In this document: positions 14,401 to 24,300 of the stretch, piece after piece
How the letters are laid out: each line of letters starts with the position of its first letter
How positions within the stretch are numbered: the first letter of the stretch is position 1
Assembly (NCBI GenBank): GCA_014281115.1
Contig: JACONQ010000001.1
Span: forward strand, 2,356,001 to 2,420,000
Length of the DNA: 64,000 nucleotides
Reading direction: 5' to 3'
Origin: Laburnicola sp. R22_1
Taxonomy: Eukaryota; Ascomycota; Dothideomycetes; Pleosporales; Didymosphaeriaceae
The notes under the pieces: model-generated
The model's input: only the letters and a program-made list of their open reading frames with translations
The model's database searches: none
What the model was told of the DNA's origin: nothing
Position numbers and translations under genes: made by a program

Positions 14401-15149
14401 CTACACTGCTAGTCTTTAGCGCATATTCTAGGATTAATATAGATTCTCCCCTATTATCTAATATTATTGCACGTACAAATGCTATATAAAAGGTAATAAA
14501 GATATTATAAAGAAAAGGGATAAGACTAATATTAATTATGTGCTAAACATCTGCAATAGTCTATTAGCAGTATATAAAGTCCTTAAGCTCCCACTTAGAT
14601 TTAAGATTATAGTCTAGAGAGAGAAAGGTAGATAGATAGGTCTATATAAGATTAAGGGCATTAAGAATAGAAATATAATTCTTAACCTAGAAAATAGTCT
14701 AGTAAAGTTTCGCTATATATAAGTTAAGCTATACTATTATAAAAAAAATTACACTCTCTCACTATTGTATAAAGTAGATAATATCGCCCCTATATAAAGA
14801 GATCCTTTAGAAAAGAGGAAAAGAGGCCGCCTAAGAAAGAATGCTGCATTCCTTTCTTAGAAGGAGATAAGCAATTAGGAACTGTCTCTAAAGCTCTATG
14901 CGGAAGGTGTAATTATAATACCTAAAGCACCTTTTAAAGTGTTAAATTATATAGAGATGGACGCTTTTATTACTAATAGCACATTTAAGATTCTTCTCTT
15001 TAACCTATCTAAGTATAAGGGTAAAATCTTTAACCTCCGCCTTATATAAAAAGTTAAGGGCAAGTCTACTTAACTATATAAGGAATCTCGTCTTGTGTTT
15101 ACTAGCCACTCTAACGAAAAGAAGGATAAAATTCTTACCTAGTTATCTA
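11480..15149 (+). pseudogene. Copia gag-PR-IN and start of RT (5' part)
   Basis: Stop-filled Copia polyprotein. The integrase part (about 13,560-14,560) is recognisable from the H..H/C..C-like zinc region and the block A-G-L-D-S-L...L-L-V-F-S-A-Y-S near 14,380-14,430, which matches the fungal Copia integrase pattern. Reverse transcriptase begins at about 14,900 (K-E-S-R-L-V-F near 15,080-15,110) and is cut at 15,149 by the inserted element. The frame resumes at 23,010. Confidence 0.75.
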
Positions 15150-16660
15150 ACGTCCCTCACTGCGTAGCGAGAAACACTGTGTGCCGAGAAAAATAAGGGG
15201 TACTTTGACTTTCAGCAACCAGAAAACCCATGCGCACGACAGATATTGCTATAATTCTACGAAAATAATCTGCTGTAACTAATTCTAAATGTTTATGTTC
15301 CACCCTCGCCCAAATACTACGTTGGCATCGTTGCTTCCGCGCCTGATTTGTACAGCGCCGTGTGTTATAGCACAACAGGTTTCCCTCCCTATAGCGTTAG
15401 CCTTAAGCCTTTTTCGCTCCAAGTTTTCGTAGAATAGCCTAATCCTACGCTTACAACCCCCCTCTAATACTAGGAGGTTATCATCAGCCCTATGCGCGCT
15501 GCGAGGCGCGATTTCATGCAGGGCCGCCCCGTCGATTAGTACTTCCATCAGAAGCGAACTACCAATCCTAGCTAATGCGAGATGACCCCGCACGTCTTAC
15601 CTTATGCACTAGTATAGTATTTTATTGTACAATATGTGGCTGTGCGCGTTGCATAAGCGTTCGGATTATCTCTTAATCCGACACAGGATTAGGAGCAGAT
15701 ATTAGACTTAAGGGCACGGCACTTGTATAGTCAGCCGACGCGTCTCAGCGTCGCAACCACTCGACACGGCCATCGTACAACTTCAAGATACGGCTCAACG
15801 ACAGCGATACCTACCATCGCGCCGCCCCGAGTGCCGAGATCCGCCGTTTTCCCTTCCGCTGATCGATGGAATGACCTGATTGAGCCCACCACGCCCTCAT
15901 GCTTCTCGAGTCCACCGGCGCGCCAATACCTAGACCAAGCCGCAGCGAGCTCTAGTCTCGGCTCATTGAAGGGGAATACGATGTGATGGGAAGGATACAA
16001 GCTAAGATAGAACGCGGCGGGCCTGGAAATCGAAGCCCGCGCTTCGGCATGTGGGTTCAACCGAGCGTTACTGGCAAAACGCCGTCGTTGCAAGCGCATA
16101 CGAAGGTGGAAAGGCTCTGCATGCTTTGGTGATACAGCTGTCGTACGGTCAATCGACCAGCGGCTCCTTACATGAGCACTGCAATCTTTAGGGCCGTAGA
16201 GATGTGCTCCAGTACGACCTCCAACAGTCATGAGGAGTTAGATCGTTCATATTCGTGAGGGATGAGTACTAGCAGAGCTGTAGTGGTGGCCATGCTTAGC
16301 AAGATTCTACACTATCTAGAGCTGCATACAGCACTCTTCTCTTCAGCCCTATCTACACACCATCGCCTCCGGCGCAAGACCTGTGTCGGAGCGGGTCGGC
16401 TACCCTCCCGGTCTGTGGTGGCGATACCTAGTGGCAATTTGCTCCTATTGCTGTAAAGTATCAATCTTAAGCATGCTTACACAGCTGGACTTGTTCTGCA
16501 TGTATACTAGCTTCATGTTCTACAAAATAAAAGCAGCGTTAGATTCAAATCTCTAAATTCTCCATTCGCCACTCGTTTAGAGCTTCGAGCGACCCCTCTG
16601 TGTCGGGATGGTGAGAGCCAAGAATCCGCTTCTGTAACTCCAAGCACTTTTCCATCAATG
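15150..16660. repeat. Left arm of the NLR-carrying element
   Basis: Inverted counterpart of about 21,530-23,007. The outer 600 bases or so are nearly identical between arms; further in, similarity falls but continues through the gene's 3' flank into its last codons. Arm-to-arm changes in the outer part are transitions. Open stretches in this arm (minus 15,285-15,593 and 15,731-16,231) do not keep a start codon or frame in the other arm, so I do not call them genes. Confidence 0.85.
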
Positions 16661-19600
16661 AGATAGCTTCGTCATTCCGTCTTTGGGACTTCCATGTATG
16701 TGCTAGATTGGCCATGCTGGTCAGCGTGTCTAGATGCTCCTCCCCAAGCACCCTCTTGAACGTCTCCATCACTTGCACGTTCAGCTCTTCGGCCTCCTTC
16801 CACCAGCCTTGATCCCTGTACGTTGACGCTAGGTTGGCCATGCTGGTCAGCGTGTCTGGATGCTCCTCCCCAAGCACCCTCTTTCTCGTCTCCATTACTT
16901 GCACACATAGCTCTTCGGCCTCCTTCCACCGCCCTTGATTAATGTACGTTGACGCTAGGTTGGCCATGCTGGTCAGCGTGTCTGGATGCTCCTCCCCAAG
17001 CACCCTCTTTCTCGTCTCCATTACTTGCACACATAGCTCTTCGGCCTCCTTCCACCGGCCTTGATCACTGTACGCCAACGCCAGGTGGGCCATGCTGGTC
17101 AGCGTGTCTCGATGCTCCTCCCCAAGCACCCTCTTTCTCGTCTCCATTACTTGCACACATAGCTCTTCGGCCTCCTTCCACCAGCCTTGATCACTGTACG
17201 CCAACGCCAGGTGGGCCATGCTGGTCAGCGTGTCTCAATGCTCCTCCCCAAGCACCCTCTTTCTCGTCTCCATTACTTGCACACATAGCTCTTCTGACTC
17301 GTTGTACCGCCCTTGATTGATGGACGTCGACGCCAGGTTGGCCATGCTGATTAGCGTGTCTAGATGCTCCTCCCCAAGCACCCTCTTAAACGTCTCCATT
17401 ACTTGCACACATAGCTCTTCGGCCTCCTTCCACCGCCCCTAATTCCTGTACGTCAATACCAGGTTGCCCATGCTGGTCAGCGTGTCTGGATGCTCCTCCC
17501 CAAGCACCCTCTTTCTCGTCTCCATCATTTGCACGTTCAGCTCTTCGGCCTCCTTCCACAGCCCCTGATTCATGTACGTCGACGCCAGGTTGGCCATGCT
17601 GATTAGCGTGTCTGGATGCTCCTCCCCAAGCACCCTCTTGAACATCTCCATTACTTGCACGTTCAGCTCTTCGGCCTCCTTCCACCGGCCTTGATCACTG
17701 TACGTTGACGCCAGGTTGCCCATGCTAGTCAGCGTGTCTGGATGCTCCTCCCCAAGCACCCTCTTTCTCGTCTCCATTACTTGCACACATAGCTCTTCTA
17801 ACTCGTTGTACCGCCCCTAATTCATGTACGTCAACGCCAGGTTGGCCATGCTGGTCAGCGTGTCTGGATGCTCCTCCCCAAGCACCCTCTTAAACGTCTC
17901 CATCACTTGCACGTTCAGCTCTTCGGCCTCCTTCCACCAGCCTTGATCACTGTACGTTGACGCCAGGTTGCCCATGCTGGTCAGCGTGTCTGGATGCTCC
18001 TCCCCAAGCACCCTCTTTCTCGTCTCCATTACTTGCACACATAGCTCTTCTGACTCGTTGTACCGCCCCTGATTCATGTACGTCAACGCCAGGTTGGCCA
18101 TGCTGGTCAGCGTGTCTGGATCCTCCTCCCCAAGCACCCTCTTAAACGTCTCCATTACTTGCACACATAGCTCTTCTGACTCGTTGTACCGCCCCTGATT
18201 CATATACGTCAACGCCAGGTTGCCCATGCTGGTCAGCGTGTCTGGATGCTCCTCCCCAAGCACCCTCTTGAACGTCTCCATCACTTGCACGTTCAGCTCT
18301 TCGGCCTCCTTCCACCAGCCTTAATTCCTGTACGTTGACGCCAGGTCGCCCATGCTGGTCAGCGTGTCTAGATGCTCCTCCCCAAGCACCCTCTTGAACG
18401 TCTCCATCACTTGCACGTTCAGCTCTTCGGCCTCCTTCCACCAGCCTTGATCCCTGTACGTTGACGCCAGGTTGGCCATGCTGGTCAGCGTGTCTGGATG
18501 CTCCTCCCCAAGCACCCTCTTTCTCGTCTCCATCACTTGCACACATAGCTCTTCTGACTCGTTGTACCGCCCCTGATTCATGTACGTCGACGCCAAGTTG
18601 TTTATGCTGGCCAGCATGTCTAGATGCTCCTCCCCAAGCACCCTCTTTCTCGTCTCCATCACTTGCACGTTCAGCTCTTCGGCCTCCTTCCACCGGCCTT
18701 GATTCCTGTACGTTGACGCCAGGTTGGCCGTGCTGGTCAGCGTGTCTAGATGCTCCTCCCCAAGCACCCTCTTGAACATCTCCATCACTTGCACGTTCAG
18801 CTCTTCGGCCTCCTTCCACCAGCCTTAATCACTGTACGTCGACGCCAGGTTGCCCATGCTGGCCAGCGTGTCTCGATGCTCCTCCCCAAGCACCCTCTTT
18901 CTCGTCTCCATTACTTGCACACATAGCTCTTCAGCCTCCTTCCACCAGCCTTGATCACTGTACGCCAACGCCAGGTGGGCCATGCTGGTCAGCGTGTCTC
19001 GATGCTCCTCCCCAAGCACCCTCTTTCTCGTCTCCATTACTTGCACACATAGCTCTTCTAACTCGTTGTACCGCCCCTAATTCATGTATGCCAACGCCAG
19101 GTGGGCCATGCTAGTCAGCGTGTCTGGATGCTCCTCCCCAAGCACCCTCTTTCTCGTCTCCATTACTTGCACACATAGCTCTTCTAACTCGTTGTACCGT
19201 CCGTCACTAAGTAGTACCATAGCGCATTTCCATACCAGGGTCATCCTATCCGCGCCCTCTTATTCAGGGAGGCTATGTGACAGAACGTACTTGGCATGTG
19301 GAAGTAGTCGTCTCCATTTGCTTCGACTACCGTGATTATCATCGGGGAACACCCTTAGGAGCCGTGCAATAGCATGTTGGGTCCATTAGTCTAGCCTCTC
19401 CTGCTTTTAGAGCCACTGCCATAGAGCACGATGTACTAGCTAGTAGAGATCAATTGCGGATTCGGCAGGTCGCCTAGTAACAAGCGCGTAGCTGTTGAGA
19501 ACTTTTACCGCATCGTCCCTTTTACGAGGTGAGGATGCTTCCAGGAGATCAAGCAGGATGTCTTTTCAGTCCACGCAGGCCGCAAGGAATAGATAATCTG

Positions 19601-21182
19601 CTGCTAGCGGATCACTACCGCGGATCTGGTCTATGGAGATAAGAAGTGTGGTGGTCACAGGATCTTTTAGACCGAATTCTTGTAGTTTGTCCCCCGGTAA
19701 TTCGCTACTACGCTCAAAAGCCTCTTCCTTTTGCTGGAGCAATTGTGACTAGTAGTTTTGCAGCGTGATGTTTCGGGTATTAATGTAGGCTGCTGCTTGG
19801 ACAATTGCTAGGGGAAGATATGATAGCTCTTATAGCAAAAGCTTCGCCTCCTGCTACTCACCTCTTGAAACCGGAGTGTGCAAATAGTTTTCCAACATTC
19901 TTTCAGCCTTATCTGGTGCCATTTTCTCTAGCTCTACAATATTCTGCGATGCCAGCCTCTCAGCCATGTCACTGTTGGTGGTTGTGAAGACAATAGAACA
20001 TCGTTCGGACTGTGGTAGGTAATCGAGCAAGTCGGTAGCCCCTGCTGTGGACAGCCCGCTGGACCCTAGGTTTATGTCATCCGTGTTGTCGAAAATAAGC
20101 AGCCACTGCCTTGCGCCCTTCCTACTCAGATGTAGTCTCACCAGCTGCTTAATATCTGCCTTCTCATCGTCCCAACCGGGCACGTGAAGCTTTTGGCCAA
20201 TACTCGCATACAACTGATAGAGACTGTCTATGTCACTTGCATCAATCCAGAAGACTGAGCAGTTCTTGTTCTTTTGTCTTATTTAGTACGCAAGCTCGAG
20301 CGCTAGCTGCGATTTGCCTTTTCCTCCTGGTCCTGTTATAGCCATCATAGTAGTTTGCTTGCCTCCGAAGAGCTTTGCTTCCAGTTCAGCAAGCTGTGAC
20401 TCCCAGCCCACGAAATGATCGTTCCGGGAAAACGGAATAATGGACGGGGCGCTATTGGCTGCTTCCACTTCAAGTTGGAGTCTTCTCCACGCTTTCTCCT
20501 TTCCCTCGCCATAGGAGGCAGGCATGAAGATATCGAGAAGTCCAAGAAGGCAGTATACCTTATCTTCTTCTTCAGTTGTCTTGCGATTTTCGGCCCATGC
20601 CATTCTCTCGGATATGGTAAATCCGTCTAATGGACAGTTCTGCAACGCCTCCACTGGAATGCTAGTAATCTCATAGACCAGCTGCTCAAGGGATCGTTTA
20701 TCGCCTATTCGCCGTCCTTCCGAAGAAAAGAACTCGACTGATACCGGAGCAATGAGTTCCTGGAGTGTCCAACCTTGGGTGAACCATTCGCTGGCTCGAA
20801 AGGATGCCTCCCAGCTACTTTGTTGGGCTATCTCTGTAGCGGTGGATACTGAAACATCCGGTAGGAATACGTAGCATTTTGTCGCATTCTTATACCAACG
20901 ATACATCGAGTTGATCGATTTCGAAAGCTCAGATAGGTTCCATTTATCAATGCAGCATGCATCAATCCAGAAGTACGGTAGCTGATCCTAGGCCGCCTAT
21001 TCGGCGCAGAACTCGATCTTTCAATAGCCCTCCTTCCCTTTGTAGGTGCCGCTTCTAATATCCTCAAAGAGAACCTCCGAATCCCCCCATCTGTGTGAAA
21101 GGATAGCATATGGCGGAATGGACTTCCCGCTGAAGTCTGTCAAGACGAGCCTCTCGGAATAATCAAAGTGAAGAAGTCGCAT
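16545..21182 (-). pseudogene. HET / NB-ARC / TPR NOD-like receptor gene, disrupted only by nonsense mutations
   Basis: One continuous minus-strand frame of 1,546 codons starts at ATG 21,182 (MRLLHFD). The HET domain comes first: P-P-Y-A-I-L-S-H-R-W-G-D at about residues 23-34, then Y-F-W-I-D-A-C-C-I-D-K, then G-W-T-L-Q-E-L-I-A-P. The NB-ARC part has the P-loop G-P-G-G-K-G-K-S at about residues 283-290 and Walker B L-L-I-F-D-N. The C-terminal half is 20 uniform TPRs plus one divergent repeat. In fungi such proteins sense non-self, with HET as the cell-death effector. The frame has about 18 stops (for example three near 20,995-21,035, TAA at about 20,281, TGA at 19,566-19,568, TAG at about 19,078), each explained by CAG/CAA/CGA/TGG transitions. 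No frameshift is seen. Domain assignment is strong; biological role is inferred from the family. Confidence 0.9.
16560..19220 (-). repeat. Array of 20 tandem 126-bp TPR repeats plus one divergent repeat
   Basis: The block R-V-L-G-E-E-H-P-D-T-L-T-S-M recurs at exact 126-base steps from 16,745 to 19,139 (20 copies), so each repeat is 42 residues, the kinesin-light-chain-like TPR_10/TPR_12 type. The last repeat (I-L-G-S-H-H-P-D-T, about 16,590) is divergent. Copies are nearly identical at DNA level, mostly varying at a few positions (W/R/Y-K/N, N-V versus C-V, T-F/T-R), typical of recently homogenised NLR repeats. Six stops fall in the array. Opposite-strand open stretches here are shadows of the repeat. 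Confidence 0.92.
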
Positions 21183-21479
21183 CGCTACAACATCGTTTCC
21201 AGGACGAGAGGGCAGAGAAGGCAAACGATTTGGGGCAAGGCGCTGCTTGGAACAGAAGCGGTTGATAGATTATGATGGTCGCGGGTGGGCTGTGAAGGCA
21301 GTGCACGCCAAGGCGGTAACCGGGCGAAGCCCTCCGGCCCAGGTGGCTGTGCGGGCTAGCCATACTGGCTCTAACGTTACTTTGCTTCTAGCAACTTTAT
21401 TAGAGCGATGCAGCTGCGCTTCACTAGAAGAATTAGCTGCCACGTTAACAACGCATGCAAAGATACGCTGCTCCCAAAA
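21183..21479. other. Short spacer upstream of the NLR gene
   Basis: Presumed promoter/5' UTR of the minus-strand NLR. It contains no gene I recognise; open frames here are short, overlap on both strands and show no family motif. It separates the main gene's start from the tail of the inverted second copy. Confidence 0.4.
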
Positions 21480-21645
21480 GTGCGGGAAATGGTTAGTAGT
21501 AACAAGGTAGAAAAACACTTTTCGCTTGGATCATCTATGGAAGCATGCTCTCAGCTGCGCAAACAAATCCTTGGCGGCCATCTAGACACAGTGTCATCAC
21601 TTGAAAACATTAAATAAGTGGCAGATGGAGAATATAGAGATTAGG
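21480..21645 (+). pseudogene. Decayed 3' tail of a second NLR gene, opposite orientation
   Basis: Plus-strand M-E-A-C-S-Q-L-R-K-Q-I-L-G (from 21,537) corresponds to M-E-K-C-L-E-L-Q-K-R-I-L-G in the last TPR of the main gene. Further on, after a one-base shift of frame, L-N-K-W-Q-M-E-N-I-E-I matches its final residues L-N-E-W-R-M-E-N-L-E-I. So the right arm carries the end of a related gene pointing outward, with its HET, NB-ARC and nearly all TPR sequence missing. The normal stop is lost. Confidence 0.8.
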
Positions 21646-23007
21646 CATTAATGCTGCTTTAAATGTAGAATATAAGCTAGTGCGAAAATGGAAGGGCGTG
21701 AGGTGCGTAAGCATGATTAGGAGTAATATCTAATGGTAATCCGAGCGATTTGGCGGTGGCGATTGCCACGGTGTGCAGGGAGGGCGGCCGACCCGCACTG
21801 GCCACAGGGTTGCGCCGGAGGCGATGGTTTGTAGATATGGCTAAAGAGAAGAGTGCTATATGCAGCTGTAGATAGTGTAGGGTCTTGCTAAGCATGGCCA
21901 CCATGAACAACCCAAAACTCCTCACCACCCTCCTAGGTCGAACTGAAGCACACCTCTATGGCCCTAGAGATTGCAGTGCTTCATGTATGCAGCCGCTGGT
22001 TGTTTGACCGTACGATAGCTGTATCGCCTGAGCATGCGGGGCCTTCCCACCTTCGACTGTGTTTGCAACGATGGCGTGCGGCCTGTGGCACTAAACCCAC
22101 TTGCTGAGGCGCAGGCTTCGATTTCCAGTGCCTCCCCCACTCTATCTGACCATATAACTGTATTCCCCTTCAACGAGCCAAGACTAGATCTCGGCTGCTG
22201 CTTAGTCTAGGAATTGGCGCTGGTTGGCTTGAGAAGCAGGACGTGGTGGCTTGAGCAGGTCTTTCGTTCGGTTAGCGGAAGGGATACCAGCGGGTTTCGC
22301 GGCTTAAGGACGATATAAATGGTATGTCTCTATGTTATAAAGTCCATATCGCTGTGTGTTGGACCGTATCTTGAAGTTGTACAATAGCCGTGTCGAGTAG
22401 TTGCGACGCTGAGACGCGTCGGCTAACTATACAAGTGCCGTGCCCTTAAGTCTAATATCTGCTCCCAATCCTGTGTCGGATTAAGAGATAATCTAAACGC
22501 TTATGCAACGCGCACAGCCACATATCGTACAATAAAATACCATACCAGTGCATAAGGTAAGACGTGCGGGGTCATCTCGCATTAGCTAGGATTAGTAGTT
22601 CGCTTCTGATAGAAGTACTAATTAATGGGGCGGCCCTGCATGAAATCGCGCCTCGCAGCGCGCATAGGGCTGATAATAACCTCCTAGTATTAGAGGGGGG
22701 TTGTAAGCGTAGGATTAGGCTATTCTATGAAAACTTGGAGCGAAAAAGGCTTAAGGCTAACGCTATAGGGAGGGAAACCTATTGTGCTATAACACACGGC
22801 GCTGTACAAATCAGGCGCAGAAGCAACGATGCTAACGTAGTATTTGGGCGAGGGTGGAACATAAACATTTAGAATTAGTTACAGCAGATTATTTTCGTAG
22901 AATTATAGCAATATCTGTCGTGCGCATGGGTTTTCTGGTTGCTGAAAGTCAAAGTACCCCTTATTTTTCTCGGCACACAGTGTTTCTCGCTACGCAGTGA
23001 GGGACGT
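21530..23007. repeat. Right arm of the NLR-carrying element
   Basis: Inverted counterpart of 15,150-16,660. In a shared 102-codon stretch (22,564-22,872) six codons differ, and every change is G-to-A in this right copy read on the plus strand. That is a one-sided RIP-like pattern. The stretch opens with GTG, not ATG, so it is not called as a gene. Confidence 0.85.
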
Positions 23008-23009
23008 TA

Positions 23010-24300
23010 CTATTTAAAGAATAAGCTAGTGTCTACTCCTTATATTAGGAGCAAGCCTTTAGGCAATATACAGAATACATTTTAAACTATAAGATATTAT
23101 CTAGGCCTATATTTAGTCTACTAACAAACTAAACTATATGCTCTATACTAGACTATTTAAGGAACTACGCATAAATTTTTTATAAGACACAATCTTCTAT
23201 ATTATATAACTACTCTATAGTATAGCTAAATTAGGTCTTTACTAGTTTAAAACCTACTACAACTACTATAAAGAGAAACTTAATATAAAGACTTTGTTAT
23301 ATAATCTATATCTACTTATTACTAATAAAGGAGAGCACACCTTTAGGATTACTAGTCTTTAGATAGATAATACTTTTAGTATTATTAATAAGAACTTTGC
23401 ACAAAGAGAAGAAAAAAAGCTAAAGAAAGTAGCCTTTTATATAACGAATAAGACTGTCCTTACTAAGGACTAACCTATTAAGTTTAATAGTGAAAGAATT
23501 TAGCTTATATATAATACTATAGTTCTTATATAAAAAGGGCAAGCAAAGGGCCTTTATATAATTAACTCTAAAGATAAGGATACTACTTAGAGGTATATAG
23601 AGAAGCGTGTGAGAGGCGCCTATATTACATCTATATGCTAACTAGAAGCCGTATTTAATTTATCTATTACCGCTTAGACTACATTATCCTTGCACAAAGA
23701 TATTAAGGTATTAAATATATAAAATAAATAGCAGATTAATAATAGAAAGCGTGGCCTTACCTTTATACTATTGGATCTCTATCGCGCGAAGCTATTTATC
23801 TTTACTAATAGCTTATTCGCTAATAATAAGAACCTAAGCTCACAGCTAAAATTCCTAATCGCTTTAGGTAATAAGCATTATATAGGTAATAGCAATAACT
23901 TTAACATTCTAGCAAATATTGTATACTAAAATTTAACTAAGTATAAGAGAGTAATAAGGAGTATTCTTGCCAGCGAGCTGTATAGTATAGTAGAAGGCTT
24001 TAATAATATTATTACTATTAGCACAACTCTTTAGAAGATTGTACGCACGCTTAGTCTACCGCTAATTCCTATAGTTATCTATATAGATTCGAAGTCTCTT
24101 TATAACTGCCTTGTACAACTAGAAACTATAAATAAGAAGCGCCTTATAATTAATATTATATTACTCTATAAATTGTACGAGCACTGCGAGATCTCTAAAA
24201 TTAGATAGATTAATAGAAAGGACAACCCTACTAATGTCTATATAAAGAAGGCCCTAAACTAGGCTCTAGAGTCCTTAATCTAGTAACACCTTAATAATCA
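23010..24300 (+). pseudogene. Copia RT-RNaseH (3' part)
   Basis: Continues the frame broken at 15,149. The RNase H portion is clear at about 23,950-24,290: S-I-L-A-S-E-L-Y-S-I-V-E-G, then I-D-S-K-S-L-Y-N-C-L-V and K-D-N-P-T-N-V, matching fungal Copia RNase H (normally D-S-x-S-L-Y-D and N-P-A-D-A). Stops throughout; inactive. Confidence 0.8.

Follow-up and report, generated by a model that had tools for sequence, protein, structure and literature searches.

A probable TA-targeting DNA transposon family with NLR genes as cargo in Laburnicola sp. R22_1

Introduction

The numbers of NLR (NOD-like receptor) and het genes differ greatly between fungal genomes, and to our knowledge the question of how these genes move and diversify is still open. 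A 64,000-nucleotide stretch of the Dothideomycete Laburnicola sp. R22_1 (contig C1:2356001-2420000, within a genome of 63.9 Mb in 26 contigs; hereafter the window) poses this question in concrete form, as it contains a HET/NB-ARC/TPR receptor gene that lies between long inverted arms inside a high-copy repeat. Was this gene brought there by a mobile element, and if so, is the element one of a kind? The explanation that fits best, and that we consider probable, is that the unit, here called E1, belongs to a mobile family of TA-targeting DNA transposons, Tc1/mariner-like in the broad sense, that carries NLR and HET genes. A first-pass annotation of the window had described a TA-flanked element with long inverted repeats that was inserted as a unit, and its inverted ends, the TA on both sides and the uninterrupted copies of the host repeat bear this out.

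The window element and its target site

The element occupies window positions 15150..23007 (7858 bp), as delimited by its inverted ends, by empty sites and by sister copies (E2-E4) on three further contigs. Both ends begin with ACGTCCCTCACTGCGTAGCGAGAAACACTG, and just outside each lies a TA (15148..15149 on the left, 23008..23009 on the right) that is found singly in the empty sites L041, L043 and L044. The left arm (15150..16424, plus strand) represents a family module of ~1.28 kb whose inner edge falls at about E1 position 1275, and the right arm (21733..23007, minus strand, inner edge approximate) is its inverted counterpart; the two are 97% identical over the outer 652 nt (15148-15799 and 22358-23009) and diverged further inward. 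In a gapped BLAST comparison the arms align at 81% over 1492 positions, in agreement with the arm length of about 1.5 kb estimated previously. The GC content (guanine plus cytosine) of E1 is 0.51, versus 0.29 in its flanks.

These flanks (14500..15149 and its continuation, 23008..23657) are part of a high-copy, AT-rich host repeat, the left one having 39 other matches at 86-89% identity among 40 scored. Seven of the scored matches came as loci (L038-L044), and in all seven the two E1 flanks are contiguous and without insert. In L041, L043 and L044 the flanks overlap by exactly two bases, TA; L039, L040 and L042 have CA at the insertion point, the right-flank match of L042 being only 156 bases long, and the alignment to L038 stops a few bases before this point. 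Because the flanks are contiguous in all seven copies, with an exact TA overlap in three, the TA at E1 is a real target-site duplication, and the empty sites that the first-pass annotation had proposed as a check do exist. The same copies bear on the proposal that the NLR gene sat at a fixed locus around which the host repeat was later inserted: none of the seven is interrupted at the site, and the same NLR unit is present on three other contigs between unrelated flanks, so this proposal, in whose favour nothing was found, is rejected as having next to no probability. A second empty site was found in the left flank of E14: here the sequence corresponding to the E23 insertion site is uninterrupted, the two sides being 86 and 89% identical and overlapping by 2 bp (L029, L031).

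One part of the earlier description that was not confirmed is the identity of the host, which had been given as a Copia reverse transcriptase. Fifteen translations of the flanks, with X in place of stops, had no Pfam match, a Copia-type polymerase open reading frame (ORF; RVT_2) from the same genome had no match in the window, and the seven relatives of the host repeat are AT-rich, high-copy sequences without an ORF of 120 aa.

A family with common ends and arms

Arm searches of the genome returned at least 49 and at least 47 matching pieces. In all, 20 members of 5.0-21.5 kb were delimited, each with TA on both sides (20/20); E10 and E11 entered this catalogue via arm matches and E27 via a sub-terminal match, while the degenerate and 17-mer end patterns included the TA. 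The degenerate pattern matched 46 sites in the genome and its reversed control none; for a sub-terminal 19-mer, with two mismatches allowed, the counts were 52 and 0. The 20 members and the 46 sites dispose of the concern that the arms might occur only in the window, without TA-flanked copies elsewhere.

Among the first 16 members compared, the common part is the arm of about 1.28 kb. It is present at both ends in 11 of the 20 members (E1-E4, E6, E7 and E9-E13, with insertions in the arms of E6 and E7), shorter or interrupted in E5, E8, E14, E15 and E25, only about 60-72% like that of other members over most of its length in E23 and E27, and absent as a long arm from E22 and E26. When 20 arm rows from ten elements were aligned, mean identity fell from ~0.8 to 0.45 near position 1275, and the same short motif closes 16 of the 20 rows, the exceptions being E4 right, E9 right and both E22 rows; the rows of E10, E11 and E13 remain alike for some way past this position. 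Rows labelled E22 left, in these comparisons and in the set of terminal motifs discussed below, belong to a separate neighbouring end at C1:239876, E22 itself being placed at C1:242370-247664.

Could such loci be ordinary segmental or inverted duplications of NLR genes that only look like fold-back elements, without transposition? In favour of this, E5, E6, E12 and E25 are almost perfectly palindromic for much of their extent, and a palindrome on contig C6 runs beyond the ends of the element it contains. However, the TA at both ends of every member and the empty sites with a single TA contradict this explanation, the flanks of E1-E4 are unrelated, and arm homology ends at the TA in E5, E6 and E12; we consider it very improbable.

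Several of these loci have features of their own. E12 (C26:694045-710614) is 16.6 kb long with a GC content of 0.57 and almost wholly palindromic, with 7.57-kb arms at 99.4% identity, so that it contains a DUF7779-TPR gene twice, in opposite orientations. E25 sits in the C6 palindrome (C6:161400-176400; L033, L034), whose arms of at least 6.5 kb are 99.8% identical and which has a Fot1-like gene near its axis and a Crypton-like NDC10_II/GCR1_C pair in its arms; this near-perfect palindrome could be an assembly artefact and, as it passes the ends of E25, the two flanks of this element are not independent. Within an arm of E23, one stretch (query positions 463-601; L031:1003-1141) has many matches in the genome that occur as inverted pairs ~0.5 kb apart, as though one half of a distinct small element with inverted repeats were lodged there.

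NLR and HET genes as cargo

In E1, the cargo is encoded on the minus strand and comprises a TPR-coding array of 126-nt units (16576..19272) and a HET-NB-ARC coding stretch (19692..21269), the latter recognised by tblastn with the E2 protein (97%) and by an NB-ARC match at C1:2375716-2376399 (window 19716-20399). An intact piece of the gene at 19854-20213 has a NACHT match below the Pfam cut-off, a second one at 20283-20906 has no Pfam match, and a search of PDB with the E2 HET-NB-ARC protein returned nothing at 0.001.

The gene had been described as whole, which is correct for its HET/NB-ARC/TPR content and incorrect for its state. Over a common HET-NB-ARC span of 1443 nt there are 6 in-frame stops in E1, 0 in E2, 18 in E3 and 1 in E4; the span is open in E2, whose TPR part lies in another frame (an intron or a frameshift). 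Of the 303 changes that E3 alone shows in the right 4.4 kb, 277 are C>T or G>A, and CpA is the context of 202 of these; among the changes private to E1 there, 23 of 24 are of this kind, and its left 1.4 kb has none. Changes of the type made by repeat-induced point mutation (RIP), together with the six stops, mark the window copy as a damaged one; judged by this pattern, it is RIP-type change that has damaged it.

Cargo in the other members was assigned by Pfam or by alignment to E2, with 51 ORFs or ORF pieces scanned. NLR or HET genes are present in 12 of the 20 members, or in 13 if E12 is counted. HET-NB-ARC-TPR genes occur in E1-E4, E11, E13 and E27, and in E13 all three domains lie within a single ORF of 985 aa. 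E7 encodes HET, NPHP3_N and ankyrin domains in one ORF of 1592 aa (HET-NACHT-ankyrin), E22 and E26 have HET-NACHT followed by WD40 (the WD40 scanned in E22 only, in an ORF neighbouring HET-NACHT, the join between the two being read by eye as a presumed intron), and E6 and E9 have HET alone. The combination of an N-terminal effector domain, a STAND NTPase (nucleoside triphosphatase) and a repeat domain in one gene is thus found as a single ORF in E13 and E7, and is broken by stops in the window copy; by predicted domain architecture, these cargo genes are fungal NLRs. E12 carries a DUF7779-TPR gene in each arm of its palindrome, and the one arm scanned had no NTPase match. The remaining cargo is varied: a dsrm match just below the cut-off in E5, a collagen-like protein in E8, an OTT_1508 deaminase with a sub-threshold MYND match in E10, DUF3176 in E23, a Crypton-like pair in E25, and a common ORF without match in E14 and E15.

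Two arrangements are described here in their own right. In E13 (C20:2036597-2046932) and E27 (C22:3357020-3367197), a SesA ORF and a TPR protein lie divergent from the HET-NB-ARC-TPR gene, so that the genes resemble a paired-receptor cassette; the TPR partner in E13 has DUF7779 and a NACHT match below the cut-off, and that in E27 is known by its alignment to E13. E11 bears two HET genes, and its cargo besides the HET-NB-ARC-TPR gene includes HET adjoining ankyrin and an ankyrin protein with a match to the single-strand DNA deaminase domain SsdA_C (L023:6513-8000).

Since the genome is rich in HET matches (150 listed of 153) and in NACHT-type matches (78), the NLR cargo might reflect a target preference or chance landing near NLR genes. 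This would not account for the asymmetry about the ends. Within 8 kb of the 46 ends found with the degenerate pattern, an NLR NTPase match lies inward of 19 and outward of 2 (18 inward on a strict count, one match falling beyond the paired end), and HET matches at the same ends number 15 inward versus 4 outward. At 18 further ends found with a 17-mer, of which 15 are two-mismatch sites, NTPase matches number 7 inward versus 1 outward, and the expectation from density over all 64 ends is about 0.74 matches. Counted from the genes, 20 of the 93 NTPase matches in the genome are on the inward side of an end and 3 on the outward side, or 18 of 93 inward when C21:1184262 and C20:2058564, both beyond the paired end, are dropped; of 15 NB-ARC matches in the genome, 7 fall within E1, E2, E3, E4, E11, E13 and E27. 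The ends of E11 and E27 are outside the enrichment list, and the counts are given without a p-value because the ends of one element and of sister copies are not independent. In addition, E1-E4, E22/E26 and E13/E27 bear the same gene at different places, so target preference or chance landing is a very unlikely source of the association.

Movement and exchange of cargo

The arms and cargo of E1-E4, on contigs C1, C24, C13 and C22, are 91-97% alike, and a comparison of their eight flanks gave no cross-hits. The difference in length between E1 and E2, 1638 nt, equals 13 x 126, i.e. TPR units. E22 (C1) and E26 (C10) form a second dispersed pair, being 97% alike as compact 5-kb elements with short inverted ends.

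Cargo and arms are also uncoupled from each other. The HET-NB-ARC DNA of E13 and E27 is 99% identical over 1541 positions and the receptor-pair cassette is common over about 6 kb at 93%, on arms that are only 61-62% alike; conversely, the arms of E12 and E13 are 96-97% alike, and no homologue of the E13 HET-NB-ARC gene was found in E12. On these comparisons, the NLR cassette is judged to have reached a different arm set recently. The two arms of one element are up to 99.8% alike (E5), whereas the inner arms of E1-E4 fall into two distinct types, and the occurrence of both suggests that arms are both exchanged and homogenised, for which gap repair, or ectopic recombination in the arms or TPR arrays, would be plausible routes.

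Candidate transposases

The termini contain two copies of an 11-nt motif, which are presumed transposase sites and lie in E1 at 15164-15174 and 15181-15191 (15164..15191, plus strand), 17 nt apart. This offset is the best one in 31 of 32 listed termini, and in 28 of the 32 no fewer than 9 of the 11 positions match; among 20000 random 60-mers, 163 attain that score at offset 17 with a start at 10-17. The two motifs change together between subfamilies.

The transposase that we favour, at little better than even odds, is of the type encoded in E11, and a Fot1-type enzyme is a serious rival to it. The E11 ORF has a DDE_3 match (5.5e-13), and Sleeping Beauty (1.7e-20) is the only PDB relative found for it at E 0.01. 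No terminal inverted repeats (TIRs) of its own were found by a search that does detect those of the nested Tc1 element in E9 and of a Fot1-like element in E14. Its nearest relative in the genome (77%, on C13) has a family arm on one side, the inner end of which is 0.4-0.5 kb away from where the relative starts, and short fragments of inverted arm on the other; again no TIR of its own was found. E9 contains an N-terminal fragment that is 45% like the E11 protein. The window copy E1 has no recognisable transposase.

The mover of the same family could instead be a DDE_1 transposase of the Fot1/pogo type that acts in trans, in which case the DDE_3 gene found in E11 and on C13 would be a mere passenger. 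All three nested Fot1-type elements whose ends could be placed share the terminal architecture, with alike paired motifs at offsets 17, 18 and 17; two of these have a Pfam DDE_1 match, and the one in E6 shows 70% identity to one of those two. Two Tc1-like elements with TIRs of their own were tested and are without paired motifs, and this contrast favours a Fot1/pogo-type mover. DDE_1 is also abundant, with 150 scored matches among 2759 first-look candidates in the genome. Against this stand the ACGTCC terminus, which occurs in none of the three Fot1-type elements, and the location of the E11 transposase and its closest relative in or beside family arms with no TIRs of their own found. A Fot1/pogo-type mover has an appreciable probability, which we place below that of an E11-type enzyme.

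Besides these motif comparisons, other observations weigh against the transposon family as proposed here or against its preferred mover. Two stops interrupt the C13 transposase gene, and its locus is broken, with the outer left piece of the arm displaced upstream and only two short right-arm patches recognisable, and no short element with family ends and a transposase was found when the genome was searched with three end patterns. The 17-mer end with up to two mismatches has 53 sites (15 exact, 8 with one mismatch and 30 with two), compared with 66 for its reversed control, so the 30 two-mismatch sites are not individually reliable. Seven or eight of the 20 members (E5, E8, E10, E14, E15, E23, E25 and, lacking an NTPase match, E12) carry other cargo or only nested transposons. 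Finally, all of this evidence comes from a single genome.

Further transposases were considered as movers and set aside on account of their own ends: the nested Tc1 of E9, two Fot1-like elements of E14, a Tc1-like transposase in the left arm of E7 (for whose right-arm copy no ends were placed), and a 47% relative at C22:3943508. What looked like a TIR on either side of the Fot1-like gene in E25 was dismissed because the whole locus is palindromic, and C20:2062258-2062817 (L032:459-1018), a candidate for a short autonomous element, is merely a MITE-like (miniature inverted-repeat) element of 560 bp with family-like inverted ends. An ACGTCC-type terminus is also present at L048:611, ~100 bases away from a Tc1-like element; the transposase of that element and the E11 enzyme are 47% alike.

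A model for the family

With a TA-targeting transposon family as the preferred explanation, its activity may be pictured as follows. A transposase would bind the two repeated motifs of each terminus, and the element would be excised and reinserted at TA, the target seen at the empty sites; E1 itself would have depended on a Tc1-type DDE_3 enzyme supplied in trans, similar to the one in E11. Both this mover and the step in which genes were captured are what we infer from the comparisons above. Homologous arms and TPR arrays would then permit recombination or gap repair between elements, which may keep some arm pairs near-identical and pass NLR cassettes between arm sets, as the arms of E5 and the cargo of E13 and E27 illustrate. 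RIP would afterwards break some copies, including that of the window, and the net effect would be NLR genes that are duplicated, relocated and altered in repeat number.

Surroundings of the window element

Outside E1, window positions 1-51500 are AT-rich (GC 0.22-0.42 per kb), and the part left of E1 is without an ORF of 150 aa. Gene-like GC content begins at ~52 kb, beyond which there are ORFs that, judged by eye, presumably encode a phosphoketolase and a PHD/JmjC protein.

Relation to known mobile elements

Tc1/mariner and Fot1/pogo elements are usually a few kb long and have a single transposase gene. The family described here shares with them the TA duplication and, with the E11 protein as its candidate mover, would share a DDE transposase, Sleeping Beauty being related to this protein, and it has the TIRs of Tc1/mariner (IS630) elements in the broad sense, in most members far longer than usual; it differs in its size (5-21.5 kb), in its NLR cargo and in the long arms of most members. 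Other groups do not accommodate it. Helitrons have no inverted repeats and no target duplication, both of which are present here. Pack-MULEs of plants are Mutator-like, with a target duplication of about 8-11 bp and mostly gene fragments as cargo; they likewise hold varied host genes between TIRs, whereas here TA alone is duplicated at empty sites and some NLR frames are long and open, which places the family outside the Mutator-like elements.

For hAT elements the target duplication is 8 bp, compared with the 2-bp TA found here, and a hAT dimerisation match in E7 sits in an insertion within one arm, so the family is not assigned to this group either. Transduplication of the histone H3 gene by hAT elements is described for Pyrenophora tritici-repentis (PMC3538342) and for Pseudocercospora fijiensis (PMC6710886), with RIP-type changes in the P. 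fijiensis copies. The likeness is that a fungal DNA transposon multiplies a captured gene between inverted ends, and that RIP-type changes occur in copies; the differences are the hAT transposase and single housekeeping gene there, and the TA targets, mostly kilobase-long arms and several NLR/HET cargos exchanged between arm sets here.

Starships move by a tyrosine recombinase, the captain (DUF3435), which is encoded at one end, and they lack long inverted arms. No captain-family match was found among the 51 scanned ORFs or ORF pieces and long inverted arms and TA are present, so these are not Starships but small elements with inverted ends in which NLR/HET genes are the commonest cargo. A study of Gaeumannomyces reports one putative NLR, SesA-NACHT-WD40, among its Starship cargos (PMC12134995), and to that extent a fungal mobile element with an NLR aboard has a precedent. 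The HNWD genes het-d, het-e and het-r of Podospora anserina are HET-NACHT-WD40 genes with internal repeats, and in the portion of that source at hand an association between NLRs and transposable elements appears only in general terms, as an assembly problem (PMC12222747). Within these limits, E22 and E26 share the HNWD architecture and similar internal repeats, and differ in that the gene lies inside a delimited element.

The four terminal sequences, searched as text, had no match in the literature covered. Nor was a TA-targeting family with modular NLR cargo found in the literature on NLR/HET genes in inverted-repeat or capturing elements, fungal transduplication and HNWD genes, a body of text, seen in part, that mostly excludes subscription papers and preprints. 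That literature does already contain fungal transposons that capture genes and a Starship with an NLR.

Implications

The element of the window, first presented as a single NLR-bearing insertion, does have an NLR as cargo; the description is too narrow, since the element belongs to a family in which several NLR architectures occur. We tentatively suggest, as a proposal with somewhat less than even chances, that this transposon system is a main engine of the NLR repertoire in this fungus: the arms would form a standing chassis, and NLR cassettes, whether single genes or the divergent HET/SesA receptor pair, would be exchanged between chassis, amplified, altered in repeat number and weeded out by RIP, and the element may be kept for the role of its cargo in distinguishing self from non-self.

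The family is a case of RIP acting on multiplied receptor genes. Target duplications and empty sites, together with near-identical copies at dispersed places and one cassette on unlike arms, make the gain, loss and exchange of recognition genes directly testable strain by strain, and a defined mobile element with NLR genes would offer a concrete route for the spread and diversification of fungal immune-type receptors.

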